A DNA stretch of 64,000 nt from Rhodoglobus sp. Its GTDB lineage: Bacteria; Actinomycetota; Actinomycetes; Actinomycetales; Microbacteriaceae. Both the position numbers and the translations under genes were made by a program. The notes under the pieces were generated by a model, which saw nothing but the letters and a program-made list of their open reading frames with translations, had not been told where the DNA came from and searched no databases. How positions within the stretch are numbered: the first letter of the stretch is position 1; every line of letters starts with the position of its first letter. The stretch covers positions 1 to 64,000 of the forward strand of contig JAODLY010000016.1 of NCBI GenBank assembly GCA_025464445.1, given 5' to 3'. This document shows, one piece after another, positions 1 through 17,548 of the stretch.

Positions 1-2
1 CA

Positions 3-2811: not shown

Positions 2812-4118
2812 ACCTGGCTCCCGGTCGCCACTGCGGGCTTCGCCGCCAGTTTGCCCGGGTTGAGCAGGTGATGGGGATCCGTGGTTTTCGCGGTCTCGAA
2901 TGTGCGTTCCGGCTCGTAGTCCACGAACCACTGGTGCGGGTTGTGGTAGCCGACGCCCAGGGCTGCGAGGCGGTCGAAGCCGGCGAAGACCTCGTCGGCG
3001 GATTCGTATTCGCCGACCAGCATCCCGATCGGCCTGCCCTTCTGGGCTTCGATGTGCAGCATGCCCCCACGGTAGACCGCGTGCACCTCGTCGATACGGT
3101 CGACGAGGGCATCCCCGGAAACCTCGACGTGGAAGTACTTGTTCGGCTCCGACTTCTGCAGCCACTCCACGGGGTGGTTGTAGCTCATCATGCTGATCTT
3201 CATCGACGTCTGCGGCCCCTCTCGGATGTCGTCCACCCGGCCGCCGGCAGCGAGAACGAGTGCGGTCGCTGCCTCGATCGACGCGACATCGAGGATCGCG
3301 CGCAGCGAGGCCCGATCGGCCGGGATGCCGGGGTCGGCGGGAAGCGCATTGGCAAGCGTCGCGAGGTCGGCAGACACCAGCCGCGGGGTGGGCTCGAGGT
3401 CGGCGAACGGCCGGATCACGCTCAGCGCCTGCTCGAACGTGTCGAAGCTCGCGAAGAATCCGTGCCACTCCTGCAGCGGCTCGAGGGCTACGGTTGCCCG
3501 CGCGATGATGCCCGCGGTGCCGTAGTTGTGGATGAAAGGGTCCGCGGCCTCGCCCTCGACGTGAACCAGCCGCGCGTCGGGCAGCGCATGCACGACGTCG
3601 AGTGCAAGCACGAAACCGTGGTGCAGCATCCCGTGCTTTATCGAGCCGGTGCCACCGGACCCGCCCGAGATGAAACCGCCGATCGACGACTGCGCCGTCG
3701 ACGGGTACATCAGCACCTGCTGGCCTGTCTTGTTGGCAGCCTGCTCGATCGAGACGAGCGTCGCACCGGCCTCCGCCGTGAGGAACCCGTCGCCGACCTC
3801 GGTGATCGCCCGGGCGCGCGACATGTCGAGCACGAGCCCGCCGGCCATCGGGATGGCCTGGCCGTAGTTGCCGGTGCCCTTGCCGCGCGGAGTGATCGGG
3901 ACGCCGTGGCGCACCGCAGCGCCGATGGCGGCCGCGATCTGCTCGGCGTCGGCCGGGTACGCGACAAGGTCGGCGAAGCCCAGGGGCAGCTGCTCGCTGA
4001 TCACCGGGGAGAGTCGCGCGCCGTCGATGGACGCCTTCTCGCGGGCGGCGAACTCGACGCTCACGCCCTTGTCGCCCAGCAGGTCGCGGAGCTCGGTTTC
4101 GAGTGCTTCAACTGTCAT
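2808..4118 (-). CDS. FAD-binding oxidase/dehydrogenase (GlcD/vanillyl-alcohol-oxidase type)
   Basis: A 436-residue soluble flavoprotein. The N-terminal PCMH-type FAD domain covers about residues 45-225 and contains the P-R-G-K-G-T-G-N-Y-G-Q loop and an S-S-I-G-G-F-I-S-G-G-S-G-G-T-G segment that bind the FAD pyrophosphate. The C-terminal part is the FAD-linked oxidase domain ending in N-P-G-K, a hallmark of the family. These enzymes oxidise alpha-hydroxy acids or alcohols; the substrate here is unknown. It lies between the SDR and the creatininase in a tight operon (1-bp gap upstream, 4-bp overlap downstream), suggesting consecutive oxidation steps before or after ring cleavage. Confidence 0.8.
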   Translation of the reverse strand: MTVEALETELRDLLGDKGVSVEFAAREKASIDGARLSPVISEQLPLGFADLVAYPADAEQIAAAIGAAVRHGVPITPRGKGTGNYGQAIPMAGGLVLDMSRARAITEVGDGFLTAEAGATLVSIEQAANKTGQQVLMYPSTAQSSIGGFISGGSGGTGSIKHGMLHHGFVLALDVVHALPDARLVHVEGEAADPFIHNYGTAGIIARATVALEPLQEWHGFFASFDTFEQALSVIRPFADLEPTPRLVSADLATLANALPADPGIPADRASLRAILDVASIEAATALVLAAGGRVDDIREGPQTSMKISMMSYNHPVEWLQKSEPNKYFHVEVSGDALVDRIDEVHAVYRGGMLHIEAQKGRPIGMLVGEYESADEVFAGFDRLAALGVGYHNPHQWFVDYEPERTFETAKTTDPHHLLNPGKLAAKPAVATGSQV

Positions 4119-4119
4119 C

Positions 4120-4878
4120 TCAGTGCATCACCATTCCGCCGGTGACGTTTATCGCCTGGCCGGTGAGGTAGTCGGAGTCGGGACTTGCGAGGAAGAGTGC
4201 GACGGCCGCGACATCCGCGGCTTCGCCGAGGCGGCCGAGCGGGGAGTAGCTCGCCCAGGTCGCGATGTCATGTTCGGTGCGGGTGTCTGCGCCCATTTCG
4301 GTGAGGATGTAGCCGGGGCACAGCGAGTTCGCGGTGATGCCGTGGCATCCCCACTCGAGTGCCGCCTGCCGGGTCAACGCCACGACGGCGGCCTTCGATG
4401 CCGGGTATGCGCCCTCGCCTGCGCCACCCTTCTTTGCCGCCATGCTCGCGATGTTCACGATCTTGCCGCCCGCTTCTGCGGCGATCATCGCCCGCACGCA
4501 CACCTGCATGGTGGTGAGCATCGCGCGGGTGTTTATCGAGAACGTTTCGTTCCAGTCCTGCACTGTGAGGTCGAGGAGTGGCGTGAACCGCAGGATGCCC
4601 GCGCTGTTGACGAGAACATCCACCCCACCCAGCTCGTCGATAGCCGCCTGTGTCGTGGTCGCTGTCGCCAGCGGGTCGAGCAGGTCGACCTCGTGGAAGC
4701 GGCCCCCGATCGCTTCGGCAAGGGCAGCTCCACGGTCTGCCAGGCGGTCGAGGACGCCCACGTGGGCGCCCTCGGCCGCGAAGCGGGTGGCGATCTCGCC
4801 GCCGATGCCGCGTGCCCCGCCAGTGACGATGACGCGTTTCCCGGCGAGCCGGGAGCCTGTCACTGGCGGGGTTGTCAT
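4120..4878 (-). CDS. SDR family NAD(P)-dependent oxidoreductase
   Basis: A 252-residue classical short-chain dehydrogenase/reductase. It has the T-G-G-A-R-G-I-G cofactor loop near residue 19, N-S-A-G in place of N-N-A-G, a catalytic Ser in N-I-A-S-M, and Y-P-A-S-K with the catalytic Tyr and Lys at about residues 157-161. The C-terminus ends in a typical G-Q-x-I-N-V-T-G-G-M strand. It probably interconverts an alcohol and a ketone in the catabolic operon. It follows the ABC binding protein gene with a 10-bp gap and precedes the FAD oxidase with a single base between them. Confidence 0.88.
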   Translation of the reverse strand: MTTPPVTGSRLAGKRVIVTGGARGIGGEIATRFAAEGAHVGVLDRLADRGAALAEAIGGRFHEVDLLDPLATATTTQAAIDELGGVDVLVNSAGILRFTPLLDLTVQDWNETFSINTRAMLTTMQVCVRAMIAAEAGGKIVNIASMAAKKGGAGEGAYPASKAAVVALTRQAALEWGCHGITANSLCPGYILTEMGADTRTEHDIATWASYSPLGRLGEAADVAAVALFLASPDSDYLTGQAINVTGGMVMH

Positions 4879-4888
4879 GCGTGGTTGC

Positions 4889-6049
4889 CTAGAAGCCGAG
4901 CGAGGTGTCGATGAACTGGTTGGTGTAGATGTCCTCCGGCGTCAGCCCAGGCGTGACCGGCAGGCCGCCGGCCGTGTAGATCGGCTGGACGATGTCGAAC
5001 AGCGCCTTGACCCGCGCGGGGTCGAGGTTGCCCAGCGTGCTGTCTCCGCCGTTGCCGACGAGCTGGTCCTTGAGGGTCTGCACGGAGTAGTCGGCAACGC
5101 CCTGGCTGTAGACCCAGCCCGTGTCGTACTTGTTGACGAGGTCGAGGATGAGCTTGTTCGTCGCGTCCGGGCTGGCGAAGTAGTCGAGCTCCGCCTGCTG
5201 CAGCACGGGCACGAGGGCCGTCAGGCAGTCCTTGTACTTGTCGATGTTCGCCGGGATGACCGACATCACGGCTGCGTACTTGGGGTAGCCGGCATCGTTG
5301 ATGAGCTGGTACTTGACAGGCTTGCCCCACTCCGGCACTTCGTGCTCGTAGATGTACGGCTCTGCCGAAGCGAAGCCCTGCTGGGCGATCTTGCCCGCCT
5401 CGCTCACGAACACCGCGGGAAGGCCGTCGTATGTCGCGTCGACCTGGCTTGCCGAGAGAATGCCGGCACCGACGAAGTAGTCGATGTAGGTTCCGCCGCC
5501 GAACACGCGAATCGTCACGCCGGCTTTACCGAGGTCCGCGATGGATTTCACGTCGGGGTAGGTTGCCGGGTCCCACATGATCATCTGCGGGTCCTTCTCC
5601 AGGGGAGCGAACACGCCGACTGTCGGCAGGTCGCCGGAGTGGGCGATTGCCTCATCCGTACCCACGTAGGCCATGAAGATCGACGGGTCGGTGTACATCT
5701 GAGCGTTCGGCTGGGCGAACCCGACGGCGGGGCCGCCGGCGAGGATCGTCACGTCGACGCCGGTGTAGGCGCCGCTGGCCATCAGCGGACCGGTCACGCT
5801 CTTCACGTCGGTGTCGATCGTGTAGTCGGAACCGAGCAGCTGGTACAGGTGGCCATGCTCGGCCTCCGGGTTCCAGTCGGTCTGGATCTTGATGTTGGCG
5901 GGGCAGCCGGCCGCCGCGAGGTCGACGGCACCGATGGTAAGGGACGGTGCGGCGGTATCGGTAGCCGATGGGGTGCTACAGGCGGCGAGGGTCATCGAAC
6001 CGGCGACGAGGCCGGCGACGACGATCGCACGCGTACGGGTTGTGCGCAT
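4889..6049 (-). CDS. ABC transporter substrate-binding lipoprotein (NitT/TauT type)
   Basis: A 386-residue secreted lipoprotein. The signal peptide is followed by a lipobox L-A-A-C at about residues 21-24. The mature part resembles SsuA/THI5-like periplasmic-binding proteins of the nitrate/sulfonate/taurine/pyrimidine-precursor group. It would capture the substrate outside the membrane for the permease and ATPase encoded just upstream (6131-7716). The unusual order, with the binding protein last of the transport genes, and the adjacency to a cytosine-deaminase-like enzyme suggest a small nitrogen heterocycle as ligand rather than nitrate or taurine; that is inference. Confidence 0.85.
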   Translation of the reverse strand: MRTTRTRAIVVAGLVAGSMTLAACSTPSATDTAAPSLTIGAVDLAAAGCPANIKIQTDWNPEAEHGHLYQLLGSDYTIDTDVKSVTGPLMASGAYTGVDVTILAGGPAVGFAQPNAQMYTDPSIFMAYVGTDEAIAHSGDLPTVGVFAPLEKDPQMIMWDPATYPDVKSIADLGKAGVTIRVFGGGTYIDYFVGAGILSASQVDATYDGLPAVFVSEAGKIAQQGFASAEPYIYEHEVPEWGKPVKYQLINDAGYPKYAAVMSVIPANIDKYKDCLTALVPVLQQAELDYFASPDATNKLILDLVNKYDTGWVYSQGVADYSVQTLKDQLVGNGGDSTLGNLDPARVKALFDIVQPIYTAGGLPVTPGLTPEDIYTNQFIDTSLGF

Positions 6050-6130
6050 TGGATCTCCTTCTGTGAATGTGATTGGTGGTGCAGGGTCCGACGCGTCTTT
6101 GAGTCAGGTCTTGGGAGCCGGGTCCTGTGA

Positions 6131-6970
6131 TCAGCCGAAGTCGTACCACTTGCCGACAGCGCGTCGGCCCAACCATCCGAACAAGAGGAAGATGAGCACG
6201 CCGAACAGCGAGGCGACGAGTATCGAGGCGAACAGCTCAGGCGATTGCAGTCGTGCGCCGAACTTGGAGATCAGTGCGCCGATGCCGGGGGTGCCGCGCT
6301 GGAAGAAGAAGTCACCCACGATCGCGCCGACTACCGAGAGGCCGGCGGAGATGCGCGCGCCTGCGAAGATCGCCGGCAGTGCGGCCGGCAACTCGAGCTT
6401 GGTGAGGATCGTCCACCACGAGGCACCCTGCAGTTTGAACAACTCCCGGTGGCCGCGGTCGACCGACTGCAAACCGAACAGCGTGTTCGACACCATCGGG
6501 AAGAGCGCGATCAGCACGCACACGATGGTGCGCGCGGCGAAGTTGTAGCCGAACCAGAATCCGATGAGCGGCATGATCGCGAGGATCGGGATGCTCTGCA
6601 GGATGACCGCGTAGGGGAAAGTAGTGCGCTCCACCCACTTCGCGGAGTTCATCGCTATCGCCCAGAGCACGCCGATCGCGATCGCGATCGCGAGGCCGAC
6701 GAGCGCCACCTCCGCCGAGTGCAGCAGCGCTTCGAAGATCGCGGGGCCATTCTTCGGGTCGATGTAGACCTGCGCCACCACGTGCGGCTGCGGCAGCAGG
6801 AAGTTGCGGGTGCCGAGCAGGAAGTTCACGAGGTAGGTGCCGCCGACGATGATCAGCAGGAGGGCGATCGGCGGCAGCCAGAGGCCCAGCCGGCCGCGAC
6901 CCCTGGGTCGGCTCCGTCGCGGAGCGACTAGCGCGGGGGCAGTGCCCTCGGATATCTCGGCGCTCATCAC
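6131..6970 (-). CDS. ABC transporter permease (TauC/SsuC family)
   Basis: A 279-residue inner-membrane protein with about six predicted hydrophobic helices. After a charged, Arg-rich N-terminus a first helix begins near residue 30. The family EAA-type loop is seen as the stretch around K-L-Q-G-A-S near residue 175 followed by L-P-A-A-L-P-A-I-F-A-G-A-R. It is the membrane partner of the adjacent ATPase, whose stop codon overlaps its start by four bases, and of the downstream binding protein. Only one permease gene is present, so the channel is presumably a homodimer, as in other Ssu/Tau importers. Confidence 0.88.
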   Translation of the reverse strand: MMSAEISEGTAPALVAPRRSRPRGRGRLGLWLPPIALLLIIVGGTYLVNFLLGTRNFLLPQPHVVAQVYIDPKNGPAIFEALLHSAEVALVGLAIAIAIGVLWAIAMNSAKWVERTTFPYAVILQSIPILAIMPLIGFWFGYNFAARTIVCVLIALFPMVSNTLFGLQSVDRGHRELFKLQGASWWTILTKLELPAALPAIFAGARISAGLSVVGAIVGDFFFQRGTPGIGALISKFGARLQSPELFASILVASLFGVLIFLLFGWLGRRAVGKWYDFG

Positions 6971-7716
6971 GCACCCTCTCTCAAGGCGTGGGACACCTTG
7001 CCGACAAGCCTCGCGAACTCGCCGGTGAAGCGAATCTCCGGGTCTCGTGGCGTATCGAACGGCACATCGAAGGTGTCGACGATCCTGCCGGGTCGTCCTG
7101 ACATCACAATCACCCTCGTCGACAGGTACACGGCCTCCGAGACGGAGTGGGTAATGAACAGGCCGGCAAACTGCTTCGCGACGAACAGCTTCAGCAACTC
7201 GTCGTTGAGCCGCTCACGCGTGATCTCGTCGAGCGCGCCGAACGGTTCGTCGAACAGGAAGATCTCGGGGTCGAGGGTGAGGGAGCGAGCAAGCGAGGTC
7301 CGCATCCGCATTCCGCCGGAGAGCGCCCTCGGCAGGTGCTTCTCGAAGCCGGTGAGGCCGACGAGGTCGATCGCCTCCTTCGCTTTGGCGCGGCGATCTG
7401 CCCGCGGCGTGCCGTGCAGTTCGGCGAGCAGTTCGACGTTCGCCTGCACGTCGCGCCACGGCAGCAGCGTCGCATCCTGGAAGACGTATCCGATGCGGTC
7501 GGTGGCGAGGTCGACGGTACCGTGCGATGCCGTTTCGAGTCCTGACGCGATCCGCAGCAGCGTGGACTTGCCACATCCGGAGGGTCCGACGACGGTGACG
7601 AACTCGCCCCTTTTCACGGTGAGGTCGATGCCGGAAAGTGCGACAGTGCCATCCGGGAAGGTCATCTGCACATCGGAGAAGTCGAGAAGGGTATCTGTTG
7701 CTACGGCTGTGGGCAT
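6967..7716 (-). CDS. ABC transporter ATP-binding protein (SsuB/TauB family)
   Basis: A 249-residue nucleotide-binding subunit. Walker A is G-P-S-G-C-G-K-S-T at about residues 44-52, the Q-loop is Y-V-F-Q-D, the signature is L-S-G-G-M near residue 140, and Walker B is I-F-L-F-D-E-P-F-G-A-L-D, followed by a switch His in F-I-T-H-S. The P-F-G-A-L-D form is characteristic of the nitrate/taurine group. It powers the importer with the permease at 6131 and binding protein at 4889. It begins four bases after the stop of the amidohydrolase, so the transport genes share that gene's promoter. Confidence 0.92.
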   Translation of the reverse strand: MPTAVATDTLLDFSDVQMTFPDGTVALSGIDLTVKRGEFVTVVGPSGCGKSTLLRIASGLETASHGTVDLATDRIGYVFQDATLLPWRDVQANVELLAELHGTPRADRRAKAKEAIDLVGLTGFEKHLPRALSGGMRMRTSLARSLTLDPEIFLFDEPFGALDEITRERLNDELLKLFVAKQFAGLFITHSVSEAVYLSTRVIVMSGRPGRIVDTFDVPFDTPRDPEIRFTGEFARLVGKVSHALREGA

Positions 7717-7720
7717 GGGC

Positions 7721-8971
7721 TCACCTCAGTTCGAGGACGGACGAACGGGCTGGGGATGGGGTGGCCACCTCATAGCTGACCTCGCTCTGGGCGACGAGGC
7801 GGCCGGCATGGATCACGTAGCGGTCGGCGGGCGCGTTCGCGATCACGTCGGAGAGGTTGCGCCCGCGTACGGCGAGCAGTTCTGCACGCAACCCCACGGA
7901 CACACCTGCGACCGGCAGCGACATGACCGAGCGCGCCCCGTCGCTGACAGCCGTGTACGCCTCGGTGAGCGAAAGATGACCGGCGGTGACGAGCAGGGAT
8001 GCCGTCTCGAGCGCATCGCTGCGACCCACCGGATTGAAGGGGTCGCGCACGTTGTCCGCGCCGGCGGCCACGCGCACGCCGGCGTCGAGAAGTGGACGCA
8101 GGGCTGTGAGGCCACGGGGTGTGGACACCGGGTGCTCCCAGCCCTGCAGGTAGAGGTTGGTGATCGGCAGTGAGATGATCCCGATGTCGCTCGCGAGCAC
8201 CTCGGTGATGATCTCGTCGAGCTCTGCCGCGTCCAGTGTGCCGAGCCGCACGCAATGGCCTGCGGAGACGGGCTGGGTCCAGTCGCGCACGATGCGGGCG
8301 AACTCGAGAAGTGTCGGGTCGCCCGCGAGACCCTCGTCGGTGTGCAGGTCGACGCCGATGCCGCGGCGCTCGGCGATGGCCAGGAGCCGGCGCAGGTCCG
8401 CGCCGGGGTCGGGCGCGAGGTGGGGCGCGCCTCCCACGAGGTCGATACCCGCATCGAGGGCAGCTTCGATCGCGGCATCCGGGGCGTCAGGTCCCGCGAG
8501 GGCGACGAGTTCGATATCCATGAGGCCTGCGAGCTGCGCGCGCACCTGCAGCAGGGCGTGCACCCCGCGCAGTGGCTCATCACCGCTCAGGACGTCGACG
8601 TGGCAGCGGATCGCCGTCGTGCCGTTGCGCAGCATCGCGAGCGCCTGGGCGAGCCCGCGTTCGGCGATGCTCGCCACGGTCATCCCTGTCGAATATTCGC
8701 GCCACGACTGGATGGCGAGTTCGAGGTCGCCGCTCGGCGGGTTGATGAGATCCCAGGACATCGCCTTGTCGAGGTGCGCGTGCGGCTCCGCGGGGGCGGT
8801 GACCAGCAGGAACCCTGTGAGGTCGAGCACGGATCCGCTCGCGAGCACCGGCTCGCCCGTGGCGGGTTGCACCGAGCGAACGATGTCTTCGATGAGCTCG
8901 ACATCGACAATGGAGCCGTCCGCGAGCGTGGCGTTCCTCAGGGAGGTCAGCTTGCGCGGGAGGGGTGGCAC
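7721..8971 (-). CDS. Amidohydrolase related to cytosine deaminase (CodA type)
   Basis: About 416 residues from a GTG at 8971; the true start is uncertain because the frame remains open upstream into the divergent promoter. It is a TIM-barrel metal-dependent deaminase: P-H-A-H-L-D-K-A gives the HxH ligands, D-L-H-T-D-E-G carries the strand-5 His and Glu, S-A-G-H-C the strand-6 His, and G-A-D-N-V-R-D-P-F the strand-8 Asp. This whole set matches E. coli CodA, which deaminates cytosine and related amino-pyrimidinones, creatinine or isoguanine. It is the first gene of an eight-gene leftward operon with an importer and ring-opening enzymes, so deamination probably is an early step. A second, unrelated cytosine deaminase lies at 23663. 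Confidence 0.8.
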   Translation of the reverse strand: MPPLPRKLTSLRNATLADGSIVDVELIEDIVRSVQPATGEPVLASGSVLDLTGFLLVTAPAEPHAHLDKAMSWDLINPPSGDLELAIQSWREYSTGMTVASIAERGLAQALAMLRNGTTAIRCHVDVLSGDEPLRGVHALLQVRAQLAGLMDIELVALAGPDAPDAAIEAALDAGIDLVGGAPHLAPDPGADLRRLLAIAERRGIGVDLHTDEGLAGDPTLLEFARIVRDWTQPVSAGHCVRLGTLDAAELDEIITEVLASDIGIISLPITNLYLQGWEHPVSTPRGLTALRPLLDAGVRVAAGADNVRDPFNPVGRSDALETASLLVTAGHLSLTEAYTAVSDGARSVMSLPVAGVSVGLRAELLAVRGRNLSDVIANAPADRYVIHAGRLVAQSEVSYEVATPSPARSSVLELR

Positions 8972-8994
8972 ATTCCCGAATCTAGGCACCTTGC

Positions 8995-9031
8995 GTTTCT
9001 GGCACGTAACGCGATGTTCCCAACGTGTTAA
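8995..9031 (-). promoter_or_regulatory. GlnR-like four-box operator in divergent promoter
   Basis: Read on the minus strand the site is TTAAC-N6-GGAAC-N5-GTTAC-N6-GAAAC. The actinobacterial GlnR consensus is gTnAc-n6-GaAAc-n6-GtnAC-n6-GAAAc, so three of four boxes match well and only the central spacing is one base short. It lies about 25 bp upstream of the operon starting at 8971 and 40 bp from the divergent reductase gene at 9072, a suitable place for nitrogen control of both. No binding has been shown; the assignment is by sequence pattern. Confidence 0.55.
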
Positions 9032-9071
9032 TTGGCAGTCTCGATTTGCCTGCGCGTGATCAAATTGCGGG

Positions 9072-10019
9072 ATGACCGCGCTCGACGACACCGCATTCGA
9101 CATGACTATCGCCTCCAGGGTCGTCGCGGCGGACGGCGTCGACGTCTTCGAGCTGGCACCGATCGGCCGTTCGCTGCCGCGCTGGCAGCCGGGGGCGCAC
9201 ATCGATGTGATCCTGCCCGGCGGCGATGCCAGGCAGTATTCGCTGTGCGGGGCACCCGGTGCCGCCACCTGGCGGATCGGTGTGCTGCGCGAGGACGACG
9301 GCAGGGGCGGCTCGGTGTGGCTGCACTCGCTGTCGGTCGGCGACACCGTCCGCGTGGCCGGCCCGCGCAACCATTTCGAGTTCTCCGCGGAGCGCGGCAC
9401 CAGTTACCTGTTCATCGCGGGCGGCATCGGCATCACGCCGATCTCGGCGATGATGGCGGCCGCCGCATTGGCGGGCGTCGAGTACTCCCTCGAGTACGCG
9501 GGGCGCTCTCGGTCGACGATGGCGCTCCTCGACCCTCTCGAGGCCGCTCATCCGGGCCGGGTCTCCGCGCACCCGGCCGACGAGGGCGACCGCCTCGACC
9601 TCGCCGCGCTGTTCGCGGGGCTCAAGCCGTTCACCACCACGTACTGCTGCGGACCGGCGCGGCTCATCGAGGCTGTCGAGGCCGCCGCCCGCGGCCGGCA
9701 GCTGCGCGTGGAGCGGTTCACGCCGAAACAGCTCGGGGCTCCCGTGCTCGCGGAGCCCTTCGAGGTCGAGCTCGCCTATTCGGGGCTGGAGCTGACGGTG
9801 CCGCCGGAGCGCAGCATCCTCGATGTCGTCGAGGAGGCCGGGGTGCTCGTGCTCTCGAGCTGCCGCGAGGGCACCTGCGGCACCTGCGAGACGCGGGTCA
9901 TGGACGGAGCGATCGACCACCGCGACTCGATCCTGACCTCCGACGAGCAGGATGCGCAGGACGTCATGTACATCTGCGTGTCGCGCTCGGCGGGGCCGCG
10001 TCTCACGCTGGAACTCTGA
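9072..10019 (+). CDS. Phthalate-dioxygenase-reductase-type oxidoreductase (FMN, NADH, [2Fe-2S])
   Basis: A 315-residue electron-transfer protein with three domains in order: a flavin-binding beta-barrel (about 1-105; R-Q-Y-S-L-C-G), an NAD-binding domain (G-G-I-G-I-T-P near residue 118) and a C-terminal plant-type [2Fe-2S] ferredoxin domain (C-R-E-G-T-C-G-T-C, with a fourth Cys in Y-I-C-V-S). Such proteins feed electrons to Rieske oxygenases or other terminal enzymes. No oxygenase alpha subunit is encoded in the window, so its partner is unclear. It is transcribed divergently from the deaminase operon and overlaps the next gene tail-to-tail by 17 bases. Confidence 0.88.
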   Translation: MTALDDTAFDMTIASRVVAADGVDVFELAPIGRSLPRWQPGAHIDVILPGGDARQYSLCGAPGAATWRIGVLREDDGRGGSVWLHSLSVGDTVRVAGPRNHFEFSAERGTSYLFIAGGIGITPISAMMAAAALAGVEYSLEYAGRSRSTMALLDPLEAAHPGRVSAHPADEGDRLDLAALFAGLKPFTTTYCCGPARLIEAVEAAARGRQLRVERFTPKQLGAPVLAEPFEVELAYSGLELTVPPERSILDVVEEAGVLVLSSCREGTCGTCETRVMDGAIDHRDSILTSDEQDAQDVMYICVSRSAGPRLTLEL

Positions 10020-11253
10020 GCCTCAGCCGTTCGACAAGCTCCTGCTCGTCCGCGTTGACCAGGCGATAGTCGCGGACGACGACCTCCCCGTTGACGACGA
10101 CGTGTTTCGGACGCCGGCCGGGGTTCGCCCAGAGCAGTCCCGCTACGGGGTCCGCGACGCCGGCGTCCGCGACGCCTGACACGTCCCAGACGCAGAGGTC
10201 CGCGGCGGAGCCGGGCCGGAGGTGCCCGAGTTCCGGCCTGCCCAGCCCCCTGCTCGATCCTTCCGTGGCCATGCCGAGCACTTCGCGCGCCGCAAGAGGC
10301 TGGCCGACAAGAGGCGCCACCTGCATGGCGAGCCTGGCGTCCGCGAGGAGGTGGCCTGCGTCGTTGCTGCCGCCGCCGCTCGTGCCGAGACCGACGGTGA
10401 TGCCCGCTGCCTTCAGCGCGGAGACGGGGGCGATGCCCCAGCCCATCGGCAGGTCGCAGCCGGGGGCGTGGGTCGCCGTGATGCCGGCGCCTGCGAGCCT
10501 GACGATCTCGTCGGGGGTGACATCGCAGAGGTGGGCGAGTGTGACATCGGGGGCCAGCCAGCCCCATTCTTCGAGCAGGTCGATCGGCCGCTTGCCGTAC
10601 TTCTCGAGCGCGATTGCGACATCCACCTGCTCGTTGGACTGGGTCCGCCTGCGCAGGCCGTGCTTCGCCGCGACCTGGCCGAGCAGTTCGAAGGTCTCGC
10701 GCGAGTCGCTGTGCACGCCGGCCGGGCCGACGGCGAGCTGCAGCATCCCGTCGCTCGTATCGAGTGCGTTGACGATCGCCTCGGCCGACAGGGCGGCCTC
10801 CTGGGGATCGTCGTGTGCCGAGCCGCGCACGAATACGAGCCGCCCACCGAGCGCTCTCGCCGCGTCGGCGGTGGCGCGCGCGATCGACACGGTGTCCGAG
10901 CCGCTCGGCCAGGTCAGGTGGTGGTCGGCGATCGTCGTGACGCCGCTGAGCAGCCCCTCGGCTACGCCGACGGATGCCGCGGCAGACGCCAGTTCGGCAT
11001 CCACCCCTGCCCGCCCGTACGCGGCCGCCATCGCCGGCAGCCACTCGGACATCGGCACGCCCCGCGTGCCCGGCAGCGTGCGGAATGCCGACTGCAGCAG
11101 GTGGTGGTGCGCGTTCACGAGGCCGGGGGTGACGACGCAGCCGCTCGCGTCGAGCGTGCCGTCGCCCCCGCCGTCAACGTCGACGACCAGGTCGCCTGCG
11201 CGCTCGGTGAACTCGTCGACGAATATGGCTGTCGCACCCGTGATCGTGAGCAT
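10003..11253 (-). CDS. ATZ/TRZ-type amidohydrolase with altered metal ligands
   Basis: A 416-residue TIM-barrel amidohydrolase resembling 8-oxoguanine deaminase, SsnA and triazine hydrolases. Strand 1 keeps N-A-H-H-H near residue 48, and strand 6 keeps the His in L-A-H-L. The strand-5 motif, usually H-x-x-E, reads Q-S-N-E: the ligand His is Gln while the catalytic Glu stays. The strand-8 motif, usually T-D-G-x-x-S-N, reads T-S-G-G-G-S-N, so the catalytic Asp is Ser. TrzN is a known relative that works with a Thr at this last position, so the protein may still be active on an amino- or chloro-substituted ring. It is divergent from xdhC. The N- and C-terminal beta sandwich parts are intact. Confidence 0.75.
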   Translation of the reverse strand: MLTITGATAIFVDEFTERAGDLVVDVDGGGDGTLDASGCVVTPGLVNAHHHLLQSAFRTLPGTRGVPMSEWLPAMAAAYGRAGVDAELASAAASVGVAEGLLSGVTTIADHHLTWPSGSDTVSIARATADAARALGGRLVFVRGSAHDDPQEAALSAEAIVNALDTSDGMLQLAVGPAGVHSDSRETFELLGQVAAKHGLRRRTQSNEQVDVAIALEKYGKRPIDLLEEWGWLAPDVTLAHLCDVTPDEIVRLAGAGITATHAPGCDLPMGWGIAPVSALKAAGITVGLGTSGGGSNDAGHLLADARLAMQVAPLVGQPLAAREVLGMATEGSSRGLGRPELGHLRPGSAADLCVWDVSGVADAGVADPVAGLLWANPGRRPKHVVVNGEVVVRDYRLVNADEQELVERLRLRVPA

Positions 11254-11313
11254 GCTGTGTTTCTAGCACCCGCGTGTAACGGGCTTGTGTCGCGCCCTTC
11301 GACCTGCCCTTCT

Positions 11314-11369
11314 ATTCGCTCGCGATCTCAAGGAACCCGCGGGAACGTTCCTTGAGATCGCGAACGAAT
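11314..11369. repeat. Long intergenic palindrome with 23-bp arms
   Basis: Arms at 11314-11336 and 11347-11369 are reverse complements with a single mismatch; the 10-bp centre overlaps a perfect CCCGCGGG palindrome at 11336-11343. It sits in the 207-bp spacer between two divergent genes, where a terminator is not needed. It may be a strong operator, a cruciform-forming element or a remnant of a mobile palindromic repeat. GTAAC-N6-GTGTC at 11276-11291 lies beside it but is a poorer GlnR-like match. Confidence 0.8.
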
Positions 11370-11460
11370 CGGGACAGTCCGGCGGGGGTACGCGGCGCAC
11401 CGGTGACCCCCGGCGCACCGGCGTAACCATTCAGAAACCCGGCCGTGGCATCCTGAAGCC

Positions 11461-12393
11461 ATGCACGAGATCGCCGACCGCCTGCTCGCGGCCCACACCG
11501 CGGGCCGCAGGCTTGCGGTCGCCACGGCGATATCGGTCGAGGGCAGCGCGCCGCGCACCGTCGGCACGTCGATGGCTTTCGACGGCGAGGCCGTGATCGG
11601 CAGCATCGCCGGGGGATGTGTGGAGGGCGCGGTCGTCGAGACCTGCGAGCTGGTGCTGGCGGACGGCATCCCGCGCACTGTCGAGTATGGCGTGAGCGAT
11701 GAGACCGCATTCTCGGTGGGACTCACCTGCGGTGGGCAGCTGCGCATCCACGTGCAGCCGTTCACCGGCGAGCTCGCGGCCGCACTGCGTGAGGGCAGCG
11801 CGATCGAGGTCTGCGGATTCGTCGAGCGCGCGCCTGTCGCGCGGCGCATGATCATCTTCGGCGCGATGGAATTCTCCGCGGCCCTCTCGATGGCCGCGCA
11901 GGTCATCGGCTACCGCGTGACCGTCTGCGACCCCAGGCCGCTGTTCGCAACGGCGGCGCGCTTTCCCGGGGCGGAAATCGTCGTGCGGTGGCCCACCGAG
12001 TTCCTGGCGAGCACAGAAGTCGACGAGCACACTGTCATCTGCGTGCTGAGCCATGACGCCCGCTTCGATGCCGAACTCATCGCCCAGGCTCTCTCGCTGC
12101 CTGTCGCCTACGTGGGGGCGATGGGATCACGCAACACCCACGACCGCCGCGTGGCATCGCTGGCAGAGCGCGGTGCGCGCGATGTGTCGAGGCTGCACTC
12201 CCCAATCGGCCTCGACCTCGGCGGCAGCACACCCGAAGAGACCGCGATCGCTATTCTCGCCGAGGTGATCGCGGAGCGCACGAAGGCGAGCACGCTCGCG
12301 CTCACGGGGACGACGGGCGCGATCCACTCGGGTGGCGCGGGTCAGGCGACGTCCGGGACCCACATGAGTTTCGACAACTCTTCGGCGCCGTAG
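11461..12393 (+). CDS. xdhC: XdhC/CoxI family molybdenum-cofactor maturation protein
   Basis: A 310-residue protein with the two XdhC modules: an N-terminal XdhC_CoxI domain with the G-G-C-V-E-G motif at about residues 50-55, and a C-terminal Rossmann-like domain beginning at about residue 130 and ending near G-A-M-G-S-R-N, typical of the family. XdhC proteins bind Mo cofactor, help its sulfuration and insert it into xanthine-dehydrogenase-type enzymes. The client is almost certainly the molybdenum hydroxylase at 14146-16761. A CATCCT hexamer ends six bases before the ATG, suggesting leaderless expression. The 3' end overlaps the convergent gene by 52 bases. Confidence 0.87.
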   Translation: MHEIADRLLAAHTAGRRLAVATAISVEGSAPRTVGTSMAFDGEAVIGSIAGGCVEGAVVETCELVLADGIPRTVEYGVSDETAFSVGLTCGGQLRIHVQPFTGELAAALREGSAIEVCGFVERAPVARRMIIFGAMEFSAALSMAAQVIGYRVTVCDPRPLFATAARFPGAEIVVRWPTEFLASTEVDEHTVICVLSHDARFDAELIAQALSLPVAYVGAMGSRNTHDRRVASLAERGARDVSRLHSPIGLDLGGSTPEETAIAILAEVIAERTKASTLALTGTTGAIHSGGAGQATSGTHMSFDNSSAP

Positions 12394-12992
12394 CCGACGC
12401 CGAAGGCGGGCCCGTCAGGCCCGAGTGCCACGCCTGCCTCGAGAGCGCCGGCGTCGACGGGATCGAACCCGAGCCGATCGATGAGCTCGAGCACCCGGGA
12501 GAGTGCTTCGCGGTCGTCGCTCGCCGCCGCCATGCCCAGGCGATCGGCGGTGCCCCGCGGGCGCCGGCCCTCCTCGAACTCGTGGTAGCCGAGCTGGTTC
12601 AGGCTCTTGACCACGCGCGCCGAGGGGAAGCACCGCTGCACGACGACACTCGTACCGTCTGGCGCACTCGCGAGCTCGTCATCCGTGCCGTCGATCGGCT
12701 CCCAGTAGTTCATCGCATCGATGAGCACCTTCCCGGCGAACAGGTCGCGGGGTAGCGACCTGAACCTGTGAGTCGGCACGGCGAGCACGATGATGTCGGA
12801 ATGCTGCACGACCTCGGCCAGGGTCGCGGCGCGAGCTCCGGGTGCAAGCACGTCGATCGTCAGGGCTATCCGCTCCGCCGGCCCCGACCCGGAGATCGCG
12901 ACGTCGTATCCGGCGGCGACCGCGGCGCGAGCGATAGTGACGCCGATCTTTCCGGCACCGACGATGCCCAGGTTCAGTTCGGTGTTAGGCAT
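12342..12992 (-). CDS. NADPH-dependent F420 reductase-like (Fno/NADP-oxidoreductase) protein
   Basis: About 216 residues starting at the ATG at 12992, which overlaps the end of the luciferase-like gene. An N-terminal Rossmann domain has I-V-G-A-G-K-I-G near residue 9 and the following strand pattern of F420H2:NADP oxidoreductases and related imine-type reductases (I-I-V-L-A-V-P). The C-terminal region with L-N-Q-L-G-Y and V-D-A-G-A-L-E matches the Fno-like family. It may supply reduced flavin or F420 to the luciferase-like monooxygenase encoded just upstream in the same operon, or reduce a pathway intermediate. Which cofactor it uses cannot be decided from the sequence. Confidence 0.7.
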   Translation of the reverse strand: MPNTELNLGIVGAGKIGVTIARAAVAAGYDVAISGSGPAERIALTIDVLAPGARAATLAEVVQHSDIIVLAVPTHRFRSLPRDLFAGKVLIDAMNYWEPIDGTDDELASAPDGTSVVVQRCFPSARVVKSLNQLGYHEFEEGRRPRGTADRLGMAAASDDREALSRVLELIDRLGFDPVDAGALEAGVALGPDGPAFGVGYGAEELSKLMWVPDVA

Positions 12993-14055
12993 GGGACACC
13001 GCCGCCACCGGCTCTTCAGCCAGCAGTTCACGCACCCGCGGGATGACCTCGCGACCGAAGAGCTCGATCGACGAGGCCCTGTGGTCGCGCGAGAGGTGCC
13101 CGATGTCGTACTTCAGGTCGAACCTGCCGAGGCTGAGGTCGCGGATCGACTCCACGATCTTCGCAGCGACGGTCTCCGGGGACCCGATGAAGAGCGCCCC
13201 GTGGGCGATCTCGGACTCGAACCGTTCGGGCGAGGGTGTGGGGAAACCACGCTCCAGCGAGGCTTGCGTCATGACCCTCTCGAATTCCGGCCAGTAGGCG
13301 GCCCTGGCCTCCTCGTCGGTGCGAGCGATGAAACCCAGCGAGTGCTGCCCGACAGGCAGCCGCGGGTGGCCGAACTGCTCGAGAGCGCGGTGGTACAGGT
13401 CCACGTATGGCGCGAACCGGCTGGGATGCCCGCCAATAATGGCCAGCATCAGGGGGTGGCCATAGCGGGCCGCCCTCACCACCGACTGCGGGCTCCCGCC
13501 CACGCCGACCCAGGTCGGGATGCTGCCGGGTGCGATAGCGGGCGAGACCCGCTGGTCGACGAGCGGGGTGCGCACGGTGCCGGACCACGTGACTGGCTGG
13601 TCGCGCAGCAGCCGGGTGAACAGGTCGAGCTTCTCCTCGAAGAGGGTCTCGTAGTCGGCGAGGTCGAAACCGTACAGGGGAAACGAGTCTGTAGAGGATG
13701 CCCGCCCGACGATGAGCTGGGCGCGGCCGTTCGACGCCGCGTCGAGCGTGGCGAACTCGGTGTACAGCCGCACCGGGTCCCTCGTGCTCAGCACCGTCAC
13801 CGAGGTGCCCAGCCGGATGCGCTCGGTGCGGCCGGCGATCGTCGCGAGGATCATGTGTCCCGCAGTGTCGACGTGGCCATCGCGGTAGTGCTCGCCGATG
13901 TTGAACGAGTCGATGCCGACAGACTCCGCGAGCACGGCTTCATCGATCATCAGGCGGACGGTTTCCGCCTCGCTCAGCACCCGGCCGGACGAGTCGCTGC
14001 TCACCTCTCCGAAGGTGTTCAGCCCGAACTCGAATTCGCGATCAGTCATCGCCAA
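12985..14055 (-). CDS. LLM-class flavin-dependent oxidoreductase
   Basis: A 356-residue bacterial-luciferase-like monooxygenase. It has the N-terminal G-L-N-T-F-G-E-V strand, a G-E-H-Y-R-D motif near residue 55, R-I-R-L-G-T-S-V-T-V-L-S at about residue 83 and a C-terminal G-S-P-E-T-V-A-A-K-I segment that contacts the flavin phosphate. A good ribosome site (AAAGGAG) precedes the ATG. It is the first gene of a two-gene operon with the reductase-like protein at 12342 (8-bp overlap). The 90 bp upstream are crowded with GTNAC boxes and a 27-bp palindrome, so it is likely tightly regulated. The substrate is unknown, presumably an intermediate of the heterocycle pathway. Confidence 0.85.
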   Translation of the reverse strand: MAMTDREFEFGLNTFGEVSSDSSGRVLSEAETVRLMIDEAVLAESVGIDSFNIGEHYRDGHVDTAGHMILATIAGRTERIRLGTSVTVLSTRDPVRLYTEFATLDAASNGRAQLIVGRASSTDSFPLYGFDLADYETLFEEKLDLFTRLLRDQPVTWSGTVRTPLVDQRVSPAIAPGSIPTWVGVGGSPQSVVRAARYGHPLMLAIIGGHPSRFAPYVDLYHRALEQFGHPRLPVGQHSLGFIARTDEEARAAYWPEFERVMTQASLERGFPTPSPERFESEIAHGALFIGSPETVAAKIVESIRDLSLGRFDLKYDIGHLSRDHRASSIELFGREVIPRVRELLAEEPVAAVSHA

Positions 14056-14082
14056 CTCCTTTCTGCGGCTCCCAAGGAGTCG

Positions 14083-14109
14083 ACATCAGTAACTACTAGT
14101 TACTGATGT
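14083..14109. promoter_or_regulatory. Perfect 27-bp palindrome, candidate operator
   Basis: ACATCAGTAACT-ACT-AGTTACTGATGT, 12-bp arms around a 3-bp centre, 28 bp upstream of the luciferase-like gene. It contains GTAAC-N5-GTTAC and also the half-sites ATCAGTA and TACTGAT found in the TetR-gene promoter at 35904-35923. It is a strong candidate binding site for a dimeric repressor or for a GTNAC-recognising regulator. Confidence 0.65.
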
Positions 14110-14124
14110 ACCAGACAGGAACCG

Positions 14125-14160
14125 GTCACTTCAAGGTGACGCGGGTTACCTCGAAGTAAC
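14125..14160. promoter_or_regulatory. Two tandem GTNAC-N6-GTNAC palindromes
   Basis: GTCAC-N6-GTGAC (14125-14140) and GTTAC-N6-GTAAC (14145-14160) lie four bases apart between the molybdenum hydroxylase stop and the luciferase-like promoter; the second overlaps the last codons of the hydroxylase gene. Both fit the GNNAC-n6-GNNAC form of GlnR sites. Transcribed leftward they could also fold as two weak hairpins, so a terminator role is the alternative. Confidence 0.5.
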
Positions 14161-16761
14161 CATCGGCGATTGCCGCGCCAACCTCCACAGCCGATCCCGC
14201 GACATCGGGAGCTCGTACGACCGCACCCCCATGGCGTCGCGGATCGCGTTCGCGAGGGCGGGTGCCACCGGGTTGTATGGCGCCTCACTCATCGATTTCG
14301 CGCCAAGCGGTCCGAGTGGGTCATGCGTGTCCGCGAAATACACCTCGGTCGCCGGGATGTCCGCGAACTGTGGGACGTGATAGTTGCGGAAGGCTGTCGT
14401 GAGAACCCGTCCCTCGCCGTCCATGCGCACCTCCTCGTACAGCGCCGTGCCGATCGCCTGGGCGGTGCCGCCCTCGACCTGCCCGCGCAACTGCTCGGGG
14501 TTGAGCACCGTGCCCGCGTCGGCAGCCTGGATCGACTGCAGGATGCGTACCTCCCCGGTTCCGGGGTTCACCGCGACCCGGAACGCGTGCACGTTGAACG
14601 AGACCGAGCGGGGTGTTCCGTCGTTGCTGCCTGAGCCGGTGAGGCCGGGGACGGTTCCCCGCGCCTCGACCTGCGCGCGCAGGTCCTGTGCAGCGGCTAG
14701 CAGCGCCTTGCCGGCGACGACGACCCCGGCCGACCCGAACGCTCCCGTGTCGTAGGCCGCGGCATCCGTGTCCGACTGTCGGATGCGGATGTGATCGACG
14801 GTCGTGCCGAGCGCCGTGGCGACGAGTTGGGCGTGCACAGTCGTGGTGCCGTTGCCGAACTCGGCAGTGCCGACAGCGATCTCGTACTCGCCTTCCGACA
14901 GCAGTGTCACCGTCGCGGACGCGTAGTGTCCGCGCGGCGGGAGGGTCGCGATCATGGCGATCGCCATCCCCGTGCCGACCGGCCATCCCTCCGGCCCGGC
15001 CAGCGAAGGGTCGAGCGCTTTCTCGGCGAGGTCGATGCACTGGTCGAGCCCGTAGCTCTCGATGCCGAGGTCGCTCTCCTCGTCGGGATTCGTCACGACC
15101 ATCGTGTCGCCAGGAACGATGACGTTTCGCCGGCGCAACTCGAATGCGTCGATGCCGAGCTCGCGGGCGAGGTCATCCATGGCCGACTCGATGGCGTAGA
15201 TCACCTGTCCGAGGCCGTAGCCGCGGAAGGCGCCCGACGGCAGGTTGTTCGTGTAAACCGATTGGGCATCCACGCGCTTGTTCGCGCACCGGTAGACGCT
15301 TATCGACTCGTGGATCGAGTGGTACATGACGCCGATGCCGTGGTTGCCGTACGCGCCGGTGTCGGCCAGGGTGTCCACCGCCATGGCCGTCAGTGTGCCG
15401 TCGGATGCCGCGGCAAGCGTCACCCCGACCCGCATCGGGTGGCGGGGGGACGCACGCGTGAACTCGTCTTCGCGCGTGAACTCGTACTGCACGGCCCGCC
15501 CCGTGCGGAGCACGGCAAGCGCGACCACGTCCTCCGTCACGAGCTCCTGTTTGCCGCCGAAACCCCCGCCCACGCGTGCGGTGAAGACGCGCACTTTCTC
15601 CTGGGACAACCCGAAGATGTGGCACAGCTCGTCGCGCACGAGGTACGGCACCTGGCTTGACGTGCGCAGCACGAGTCGGCCGTCCGCGTCGAGCCAGCCG
15701 CGCGTTGCATGCGTTTCGAGGGCTGCATGGTTCACGCGCTGGGTCTGCCAGGTTCCCGTGACCACGGCCGCCGCCTCCGAAATGGCGGCGTCGACGTCAC
15801 CGGTCTCGCCGTGGAACTCCGCGACCGTGTTGCGCTCCGGCGCCGCGATACGCGACTCCGGCCCCTTGTCCCCGTGCAGCAGGGGTGCGCCGGGCTGCCG
15901 CGCGAGCGACGGGTCGAACACCGCCGGGAGCAGTTCGTATTCGACGGTTATCGCCGCCAGCGCCAGCTCGGCGATCGCGACCGAGTCGGCGACGACAGTC
16001 GCGACCCGCTGGTTCACGAACCGCATCACCCGGTCGAAGACGAGGGTGTCGTCGGGGTCGTCGGTGCGCAGCTCATGCCTGCCCGTGGAGAACAGCGTCG
16101 CGGGGGAGTCGCGGTAGTCGAGCACGGCGTGGACTCCGGGAAGCGCCGCGGCCACCGAGGTGTCGATGGCGGTGATGCGGGCGTGCGGATGCGGGCTCCC
16201 GAGCACCGCGATGTGCGCGAGCGCCGTGGTGGCGAGGTCGAGCGTGTACGGCTCGCGCCCGGTGACCACGCGCACGGCGGCGGGTGCCGCGACCGAGCGG
16301 CCCGCGGCATCCCCCGATGGTGCCGTCTCGGTGTTCGACACCCCGCGGATCGCGTCGTGGATCGAGCGGTAGCCCGTGCAGCGGCACAGGTTGCCTTTGA
16401 GCAGGCGCGGCAGGTCGTCGTGGTCGGCCTCCGTGAATGTCGACGCGGTGACGATCATGCCGGCGGTGCAGAACCCGCACTGGAATCCGCCCGCGGCGAC
16501 AAAAGCCTCCTGCAGCGGATGCGGCGCCTCCGCGGTCCCCAGCCCGGACACCGTCGTGACGCTCGCGCCGTCGAGCCGATGGGCGGGGTAGATACAGGAG
16601 TGCACGGGGGAGCCGTCGAGCAGCACAGAGCAGGCACCACAGTCCCCGGCGTCGCAGCCCTTCTTCACCTCGAAGTGCTCGAGGTCGCGCAGCAGCGTGC
16701 GCAGCACCTGGCCGGGCCGGGATTCGACCTCGACCGGTTCACCGTTGATCTCGAGCCTCAC
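14146..16761 (-). CDS. Molybdenum hydroxylase with fused [2Fe-2S] domains (XdhD-like)
   Basis: An 871-residue single-chain fusion of the small and large subunits of xanthine-dehydrogenase-type enzymes. Residues 1-75 form a plant-type ferredoxin domain (C-D-A-G-D-C-G-A-C); residues about 78-150 form the helical [2Fe-2S] domain (C-G-F-C-T-A-G and C-R-C-T-G-Y). From about residue 165 comes the molybdopterin part with G-G-G-F-G-G-K-Q-E, F-R-G-Y-G-L-G-Q, Q-V-E-G-G-T-A-Q-A-I-G and the catalytic Glu in G-A-K-S-M-S-E. Such enzymes hydroxylate electron-poor C-H bonds of purines, pyrimidines or nicotinate-like rings with water. The FAD subunit gene overlaps its start (4 bp), and XdhC is nearby. The fusion resembles E. 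coli XdhD; the substrate is not predictable. Confidence 0.9.
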   Translation of the reverse strand: MRLEINGEPVEVESRPGQVLRTLLRDLEHFEVKKGCDAGDCGACSVLLDGSPVHSCIYPAHRLDGASVTTVSGLGTAEAPHPLQEAFVAAGGFQCGFCTAGMIVTASTFTEADHDDLPRLLKGNLCRCTGYRSIHDAIRGVSNTETAPSGDAAGRSVAAPAAVRVVTGREPYTLDLATTALAHIAVLGSPHPHARITAIDTSVAAALPGVHAVLDYRDSPATLFSTGRHELRTDDPDDTLVFDRVMRFVNQRVATVVADSVAIAELALAAITVEYELLPAVFDPSLARQPGAPLLHGDKGPESRIAAPERNTVAEFHGETGDVDAAISEAAAVVTGTWQTQRVNHAALETHATRGWLDADGRLVLRTSSQVPYLVRDELCHIFGLSQEKVRVFTARVGGGFGGKQELVTEDVVALAVLRTGRAVQYEFTREDEFTRASPRHPMRVGVTLAAASDGTLTAMAVDTLADTGAYGNHGIGVMYHSIHESISVYRCANKRVDAQSVYTNNLPSGAFRGYGLGQVIYAIESAMDDLARELGIDAFELRRRNVIVPGDTMVVTNPDEESDLGIESYGLDQCIDLAEKALDPSLAGPEGWPVGTGMAIAMIATLPPRGHYASATVTLLSEGEYEIAVGTAEFGNGTTTVHAQLVATALGTTVDHIRIRQSDTDAAAYDTGAFGSAGVVVAGKALLAAAQDLRAQVEARGTVPGLTGSGSNDGTPRSVSFNVHAFRVAVNPGTGEVRILQSIQAADAGTVLNPEQLRGQVEGGTAQAIGTALYEEVRMDGEGRVLTTAFRNYHVPQFADIPATEVYFADTHDPLGPLGAKSMSEAPYNPVAPALANAIRDAMGVRSYELPMSRDRLWRLARQSPMVTSR

Positions 16762-17507
16762 CGCAGCTCCTCGAGCAGCTCGAGCGCGAACCGCAGGCTC
16801 ATCGCGCGGCGCCAGTCTGGCGCGCCGTGTGCATCGTCATACCAGTCGTCGAGCGCGTCGATGCCGCGGATGAGCTCCTCGGCGGTGTCGAAGTGCACTT
16901 GATGTGGGCGCTCGGTTCCGCCCGAGACTGTTACGACCCCGGGCCGGGCGATTACCAGCGTGCCGGTGCGGCCGAGGGGCGACAGGGAGATGCGGCGGAA
17001 CCCGGTGCGCTCGAGCGACGCGAGGGGGATCTCGATCGAGCGGATCACCTCGCCGGGCCCGAGCAGGTTGCGCTGCACACCGGTGACGAAGTCCACGGCC
17101 GGCACGCTCCGCTCAGAAGTCGCCGTCCAGAGCACGAGTGTCGCGTCGAGGGCCACCGCGAGGGATGTCATGGGCCCGGCGGGCAGGGACAGCGCGATGT
17201 TGCCGCCGACGGTCGCGACGCCCTGCACCTTCCACGACGCGAGCAGGGAATCCGCGCACTGGCGGAACAGCGGGGAATCCGGCAGCTCGCGCAGTGACGC
17301 GATCGTGCAGGTGGCGGCGATGGAGAGGAACTCGTCGATGCGCGTGACGGGGGCCCACGGCATCCCGAGCAGATCGACGACACCGGTGGCCTGCTGTGGC
17401 TCCGAATACAACCACGTGCCACCGCCGATGACGACCTCGCCGGGCGCGAGAGCGAGGTCGCCCCGTGTGCGGGCGACGCGGGCGGACTGCACGGTGATCA
17501 GGTCCAT
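16758..17507 (-). CDS. FAD-binding subunit of molybdenum hydroxylase (CoxM/XdhB-like)
   Basis: About 249 residues from the ATG at 17507. Two further ATGs at 17525 and 17528 would add six or seven residues, so the start is uncertain. The N-terminal FAD motif is G-G-G-T-W-L near residue 28 and the second is V-G-G-N-I-A-L near residue 100, in place of the usual G-G-N-L/I; a CO_deh_flav_C-like region follows. It is shorter than typical subunits (about 280 residues). It would accept electrons from the [2Fe-2S] clusters of the adjacent 871-residue protein and pass them to NAD or another acceptor. It is the first gene of this leftward pair. Confidence 0.82.
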   Translation of the reverse strand: MDLITVQSARVARTRGDLALAPGEVVIGGGTWLYSEPQQATGVVDLLGMPWAPVTRIDEFLSIAATCTIASLRELPDSPLFRQCADSLLASWKVQGVATVGGNIALSLPAGPMTSLAVALDATLVLWTATSERSVPAVDFVTGVQRNLLGPGEVIRSIEIPLASLERTGFRRISLSPLGRTGTLVIARPGVVTVSGGTERPHQVHFDTAEELIRGIDALDDWYDDAHGAPDWRRAMSLRFALELLEELR

Positions 17508-17532
17508 TGTGGGTCGAGTCAACATCATGGAT

Positions 17533-17548
17533 GTGACGCGCGTGTAAC
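17533..17548. promoter_or_regulatory. GTNAC-N6-GTNAC box upstream of the molybdenum hydroxylase operon
   Basis: GTGAC-N6-GTAAC on the plus strand (GTTAC-N6-GTCAC on the minus strand), 26 bp before the preferred ATG at 17507. It fits the GlnR-type half-site pattern seen at 8995 and 14125. If translation starts at 17528 the box would be only five bases away, which favours the shorter start. Confidence 0.5.

Follow-up and report, generated by a model that had tools for sequence, protein, structure and literature searches.

The window considered here is a stretch of 64,000 nucleotides from Rhodoglobus sp. (assembly GCA_025464445.1, contig JAODLY010000016.1, positions 1 to 64,000). The gene in question, at positions 10003-11253, encodes an amidohydrolase-fold protein in which two residues usually found in the active site of its relatives are replaced. 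This gene, and the family to which it belongs, are referred to as C0. The open reading frame (ORF) is intact, starts with ATG on the minus strand and encodes 416 amino acids; the plus-strand reading of the same interval is interrupted by a stop. The coordinates given in an initial annotation, made from the sequence alone, were exact, and the strand is minus. The protein matched the amidohydrolase superfamily profile PF01979 with 117.9 bits (cut-off 25), and its structural model displayed the (beta/alpha)8 barrel of the superfamily with invariant H49 and H51 after strand 1.

Strand 5 of the protein reads L200-R-R-R-T-Q205-S-N-E208 and strand 8 reads G-L-G-T-S292-G-G-G-S-N. In a 193-row MAFFT alignment, Q205 (codon 10639-10641; all codons on the minus strand) occupied the column of the strand-5 His of canonical enzymes and of TrzN (His238), and S292 (10378-10380) that of the canonical strand-8 Asp and of TrzN Thr325. 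Both replacements proposed in the initial annotation, His by Gln and Asp by Ser, were thereby borne out. The other His of the canonical strand-5 H-T-H motif, its first, is also replaced, by R203 (10645-10647), the protein reading R203-T-Q205. Alignment with relatives identified H49 and H51 as the HxH of strand 1 (H49-H50-H51, 11101-11109). By analogy with the enzymes treated in PMC13054789 and PMC4356373, Q54 would act as the oxyanion Gln and E208 as the proton donor, H111 would correspond to the DHH His and H241 to the His of strand 6. Invariant or near-invariant residues specific to the family include H181, R202, R203, N207 and C266, while D183 is also present in TrzN. H181 (10711-10713), which is Pro in TrzN and Phe in canonical enzymes, lies in the loop after strand 4 and is the one residue that might stand in as ligand or base.

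The AlphaFold2 model, obtained from a 57-row alignment, displayed a mean predicted local distance difference test score of 94.2 and a predicted template modeling score of 0.94. In this model strand 201-205 ends with Q205, and H241 and S292 lie just past strands 237-240 and 286-289, respectively; these strand ends are the expected barrel mouth. Alignment and model together ruled out a misalignment, and no other residue was found to fill the strand-5 and strand-8 places of the missing His and Asp, a possibility raised in the initial annotation.

The family set comprised 111 rows, 102 of them distinct over residues 40-400, and was gathered from the window, 80 further loci and orthologues from protein searches. 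These 80 loci were the best 80 of 550 confirmed stretches from one scan of genome contigs with two DNA patterns, one of which contains Q205, so that they were partly pre-selected. Whole-protein searches, which are free of this bias, covered 149 related genomes, 394 from the class and, with TrzN as query, 297 from the order, and the loci contributed by 22, 4 and 3 further genomes, respectively, displayed the same residue set. H49, H51, Q54, H111, R203, Q205, E208, H241 and S292 were encountered in 111 out of 111 family rows; the 82 remaining rows (79 distinct) never displayed the full set, and no row was mixed. Given in the same order, the distinct non-family rows were H-H-Q-H-H-H-E-H-D (70), H-H-E-M-H-H-E-H-D (7) and two TrzN sequences; the strand-5 His was present in all 79. 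The His at the end of strand 5 and the Asp at the end of strand 8 that mark subtype III deaminases are Gln and Ser, respectively, in every one of the 111 family rows. A search of 396 genomes of the phylum (E up to 1e-52) gave no match of 44% to 70% identity, and hence no intermediate between family C0 and the others, among first-look candidates from which distant ones may have escaped.

The C0 gene is under purifying selection. Ratios of nonsynonymous to synonymous substitution (dN/dS; Nei-Gojobori type, own script) between the window gene and ten orthologues were 0.11-0.20, and S292 was encoded by AGY in 69 and by TCN in 11 of the 80 genes read (out of 81). The codon pattern for R203/Q205/E208 missed four of the 81 genes and that for S292 missed one, all of which are present as alignment rows. 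Invariance of the residue set, variety of the S292 codons and dN/dS ruled out a decayed copy; the lone degenerate gene considered in the initial annotation is at odds with 102 distinct sequences carrying the set. Its alternative proposal, a separate subfamily, is well supported by the invariant variant residues and dN/dS as well as by the phylogeny and by a genome distribution identical to that of two partner genes (see below); the unusual chemistry suggested along with it is an inference.

TrzN from Paenarthrobacter aurescens TC1 (PDB 3ls9) was the closest solved protein by sequence (phmmer E 4.3e-66; 37-38% identity) and the best structural match of the C0 model (VIA-align Z 54.0, 1.9 Å, 414 aligned residues); TrzN entries also held the top ranks of a Foldseek search. 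Other deaminases stood next to it in the structural ranking with Z 50-53, so that the fold alone does not single out TrzN. Nonetheless, the choice of TrzN as a precedent in the initial annotation was apt: according to a paper on AtzA, the Asp position is taken by Thr325 in TrzN, which uses Glu241 (PMC4356373). The same paper reports that His274 hydrogen-bonds the zinc water, and describes TrzN as unique for its Thr at the Asp position and as a 'ninth subgroup' (PMC4356373). TrzN and C0 have in common the same fold, the lack of the strand-8 Asp, a Glu as (in C0, putative) proton donor, and the motifs G-T-[ST]-G..SND and [PC]D-L-x-M-G-W-G. S292 and E208 correspond to the strand-8 hydroxyl residue and the Glu of the TrzN type, with Ser instead of Thr; replacement of Thr325 by Ser is reportedly tolerated in TrzN with a reduced rate. 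In contrast to C0, TrzN displays H-T-H on strand 5 and Thr on strand 8; its HxHxxQ motif has Glu where C0 has Gln, and a Pro stands at the place of H181. Of the three His ligands of the TrzN type (the HxH pair and that of strand 5), the strand-5 one is Gln in C0, a loss that takes C0 a step beyond TrzN. At several family-specific columns TrzN carries the C0-family residue (e.g. G179, V180, D183, D267, M270, W272, T291 and D305), and at others the canonical one (H203, H205, C178 and W238).

In a 54-row tree, family C0 formed one clade (support 100/100) with TrzN as sister (99/99), both on long branches. Grouping of TrzN with canonical deaminases was not rejected by the approximately unbiased test (p 0.124). 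A common origin of family C0 and TrzN is likely but not proven. Both TrzN copies seen were located on plasmids, pTC1 (1.5 kb flanks viewed) and pAD51 (10 kb flanks). On Arthrobacter plasmid pAD51 (L152:9848-13050), a substrate-binding protein gene and a RidA-family gene lie beside the TrzN-type gene, and none of the other genes described below as neighbors of C0 was annotated there. This arrangement is a faint echo of the importer found beside family C0.

The 8-oxoguanine deaminase-like and AtzB/NdmH group resembles C0 in its HxHxxQ motif, its Glu and its strand-6 His, and is likewise encountered near urate oxidase, which was present in 14 of the 17 genomes having only this homologue. It differs by the strand-5 His and the strand-8 Asp, both retained in all 77 distinct rows that are neither family C0 nor TrzN. 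Identity between C0 and this group was roughly 30-39% in the alignment, and the C0 protein scored 265.5 bits against the 8-oxoguanine deaminase equivalog NF006055, below its curated cut-off of 532. The isocytosine deaminase Vcz (PDB 7ww2), whose substrate is a pyrimidine base, was also among the closest solved folds (Z 51.9), with 30% identity.

Gene neighborhoods were compared between the window and the 80 loci with home-made ORF calls and clustering, flanks of at most 10 kb and cuts at contig ends, so that all counts are lower bounds; neighbors were named from profiles of single cluster members or from reading their sequences. A 2Fe-2S flavin reductase of the phthalate-dioxygenase-reductase type (C2, 9072-10019, plus strand) is convergent with C0 and overlaps its end by 17 bases. 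Similar reductases were found in 61 of the 80 fetched loci as well as in the window, where the overlapping ORF had left it uncounted. Beyond it follow, all on the minus strand, a cytosine-deaminase/AtzC-like amidohydrolase identified by profile (C1, 7721-9046; 68 of 81 loci, window included), an ATP-binding cassette (ABC) transporter ATPase (C6, 6967-7716; 41 loci) and permease (C5, 6131-6970; 45 loci), both labeled by sequence reading, and a probable ABC substrate-binding lipoprotein (C3, 4889-6049; 60 loci), labeled by position and sequence reading. C3 had no NCBIfam or Pfam match and no PDB match better than E 0.084, and did not help to choose among the substrates that the neighbors suggest (creatinine, methylated purines or pterins). 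Next on the same strand are a short-chain dehydrogenase (C12, 4120-4878; 19 loci), an FAD_binding_4 oxidoreductase (C4, 2808-4118; 58 loci) and a pyridoxamine-5'-phosphate-oxidase-like (PNPOx-like) protein (C10, 1493-2044; 25 loci), all three identified by profile. At the contig end lies a plus-strand fragment of the methylenetetrahydrofolate-reductase-like (MTHFR-like) family (C14, 24-716; 15 loci), recognized by clustering and the Pfam matches of other members.

On its other side, C0 is divergent from a gene for an XdhC-like molybdenum-hydroxylase maturation factor (C8, 11461-12393, plus strand; 27 of 81 loci). Further on the minus strand are a xanthine-dehydrogenase-family iron-sulfur/molybdenum protein (C9, 14146-16761; 26 loci), which reached the cut-off of none of the NCBIfam models listed, and the flavin adenine dinucleotide (FAD) subunit of a molybdenum hydroxylase (C41, 16758-17627; identified by profile). 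Other recurrent neighbors were an XRE-cupin regulator (34 of 81 loci) and a creatininase-family protein (23 of 81), and FolD- and GlyA-like genes, labeled by sequence reading, were near in four loci. One further cluster, present in 17 loci, was composed of ten intact 8-oxoguanine-deaminase-like proteins and seven proteins of another family. As to a partner for the reductase, a crude motif scan of the ORFs of the 81 loci yielded no P450 and one spurious-looking Rieske hit, which, given flanks of at most 10 kb and home-made calls, does not prove that such a partner is absent.

The C0 gene was present in 23 of the 149 related genomes. C1 orthologues (at least 59% identity) and C4 orthologues (at least 60%) were found in the same 23; beyond these, C1 homologues with E up to 1e-70 were restricted to two genomes, G102 and G119, at 44-46% identity, and C4 to G119, at 40%. 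Urate oxidase (TIGR03383) was detected in 44 of the 149 genomes, namely in 22 out of 23 C0 carriers and 22 out of 126 non-carriers (Fisher p 3.6e-13, ignoring genome relatedness). It was located on the same contig within 34 kb of C0 in 20 of these 22 carriers, about 400 kb away in G098 and on another contig in G055. The window contig begins at base 1 inside the MTHFR-like gene, the point at which relatives continue into allantoinase and urate oxidase.

The purine-degradation cluster itself was surveyed in 13 relatives by means of 20 stretches, each at most 20 kb long; not all genes were reached or shown by every stretch, and profiles were run on one member each. Members numbered 12 for allantoinase, 12 for urate oxidase, ten for hydroxyisourate hydrolase, seven for a deaminase of the cytidine deaminase (CDA) fold, five for a glyoxylate-type aminotransferase and four for allantoate amidohydrolase. 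The CDA-fold deaminase, present in the cluster of seven of the 13 genomes, had TadA as best NCBIfam match, below cut-off; it is read here as a possible guanine deaminase. Urate-oxidase-cluster genes also lay within the fetched stretches of Frondihabitans (L111, together with allantoinase, for which the profile was run) and of four Curtobacterium loci (L070, L077, L081 and L082; profile run on L081). A guanine deaminase-like gene adjoins C0 in Rhodococcus sp. HNM0569 (L104), and the guanine deaminase profile TIGR02967 was matched at 1e-60 in only four of the 23 carriers.

Since its genome distribution is the same as that of C1 and C4, and urate oxidase is present in 22 of 23 carriers, the C0 gene belongs to a module for import and conversion that is linked to a purine-degradation cluster. 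Searches of the open-access literature yielded no account of such a module. An even chance is given to the view that C0 is a distinct TrzN-like subfamily of mononuclear amidohydrolases working in an actinobacterial purine-degradation locus. The protein most likely hydrolyses a purine-like compound at a TrzN-type water site, without the usual base and one ligand. In the AtzB/NdmH group, the catalytic machinery consists of Gln, Glu, His and Asp. There the Asp is proposed to take the proton of the metal-bound water and the His to relay it to the Glu; this Glu would protonate the leaving group as well as the ring nitrogen, with the Gln steadying the oxyanion (PMC13054789). Q54, E208 and H241 are all kept in family C0; as the family keeps this Gln, Glu and His without the Asp, and TrzN with its Thr keeps Glu and His, a TrzN-like water site is favored.

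The module would import a purine-like heterocycle through the ABC importer, and C0 would remove an amino, alkylamino or similar group by hydrolysis, the product entering the xanthine/urate route. H241 would hold the water and relay its proton, E208 would donate a proton first to the ring nitrogen and later to the leaving group, and Q54 would steady the oxyanion, with S292 only positioning the water, as Thr325 does in TrzN. A divalent metal, if present, would be held by H49 and H51, with Q205 (through its oxygen) and perhaps H181 as weaker ligands; relative to TrzN the metal site would be weakened or re-built. Substrates that carry a good leaving group or an activated ring would be well matched to this kind of site.

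Several observations weigh against a TrzN-like hydrolase coupled to purine degradation. The joint loss of the strand-5 His pair and the strand-8 Asp also fits a metal-free or a non-catalytic protein, and conservation of the strand-8 Asp reaches 99.2% in the AtzB cluster (PMC13054789). The window's own assembly, the sole exception among the carriers, gave no urate oxidase match. The C4 orthologue of carrier G078 displays one in-frame TGA, so that one partner may be broken in this genome, and some carriers have few of the usual neighbors within 10 kb (e.g. L104 and L095). Finally, G119 (L208:7466-15789) harbors homologues of C1, the ABC genes, C4, the XRE-cupin regulator and the PNPOx-like protein at 32-63% identity with no C0 match, and a second locus of G033 (L212:592-10758) harbors C4-, XRE- and MTHFR-like genes with another amidohydrolase and no C0. 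This type of module can therefore do without a C0 gene, the C0-less modules presumably acting on other substrates.

LigI is a metal-independent member of the amidohydrolase superfamily, and C0 might be another. R201-R203, Q205 and S292 would then replace the metal, an Arg acting as electrophile and E208 and H241 (or H181 and D183) activating the water. R202, R203, Q205, H181 and S292 do not vary across the 111 family rows and are seldom or never encountered in the 71 canonical rows compared, and the metal-site residues are lost except for HxH and H241, an Arg standing at one strand-5 His place. But HxH, H241 and E208 remain invariant, which would be difficult to account for had neither a metal nor a closely similar water site been retained, and a metal-free enzyme, though a serious rival, is considered rather unlikely. 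Another serious rival, a pseudoenzyme serving as sensor, scaffold or partner subunit through its binding of the pathway compound or of a partner protein, is held to be slightly less likely still. Such a role would account for the concomitant loss of ligand and general base, and a helper would also fit the strict linkage to the operon partners, but invariance of E208, Q54 and H241 would be unexpected had catalysis been lost. The XRE-cupin regulator already present in 34 of 81 loci also speaks against this role. As for a partner subunit, an intact 8-oxoguanine-deaminase-like protein does occur at the same loci, but in only 10 of 81 stretches, which makes a fixed heteromer with C0 unlikely. The open-access literature gave no usable precedent for the pseudoenzyme or the metal-free case, nor anything of use on TrzN active-site variants or on the subtypes of metal site. 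That C0 is simply an 8-oxoguanine (or guanine) deaminase is very improbable: this deaminase was indeed its best NCBIfam match, in a urate context, and the rarity of TIGR02967 among carriers leaves room for another guanine deaminase, but the score was half of the curated cut-off while the intact paralogue at L058 reached 614.2 bits, the site lacks the Asp and the His that deaminases have, and a CDA-fold deaminase already resides in the cluster of seven of the 13 genomes.

Somewhat short of an even chance is that C0 stands for a new class of amidohydrolase active site: a natural purine-module enzyme devoid of both the strand-5 His and the strand-8 Asp, with either a His-His-Gln(-His) metal site or a metal-free Arg/Gln/Ser arrangement, and the nearest natural relative of TrzN. 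A widespread family lacking both residues with the other machinery kept bears on what is the minimum for catalysis in this fold. As a possible natural relative of TrzN with a genomic context, it makes the origin of this herbicide-degrading enzyme testable. From its tight coupling to a single importer and a single hydrolase, a branch of purine catabolism not yet described can be predicted for Microbacteriaceae and other actinobacteria.

Some minor observations concern the surroundings of C0. Within the cluster of one relative (L103:17747-19839), two tandem MTHFR-like proteins display DUF5981, and the second locus of G033 (L212) also encodes two DUF5981 proteins; these pairs suggest that one-carbon units or methyl groups are transferred in the pathway. 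The interval 12342-14055 of the window, from xdhC to the molybdenum hydroxylase, holds genes for an F420-oxidoreductase-like protein and an Atu2307-type luciferase-like monooxygenase, which are not recurrent neighbors. One family copy resides on a contig of 4,559 bases (L092) filed as Stenotrophomonas maltophilia P13; its called neighbors are those of Microbacterium memoriense (L088), and it is most likely a contamination of the Stenotrophomonas assembly. An Rfam scan of positions 1-20000 of the window and promoter and terminator scans of 9000-11600 gave no match. The 207-base gap between C0 and xdhC harbors a 38-base inverted repeat (11323-11360) with perfect arms of 14 bases. The genome as a whole holds a single occurrence of this exact arm pattern, and the repeat might serve as an operator or as a shared hairpin.

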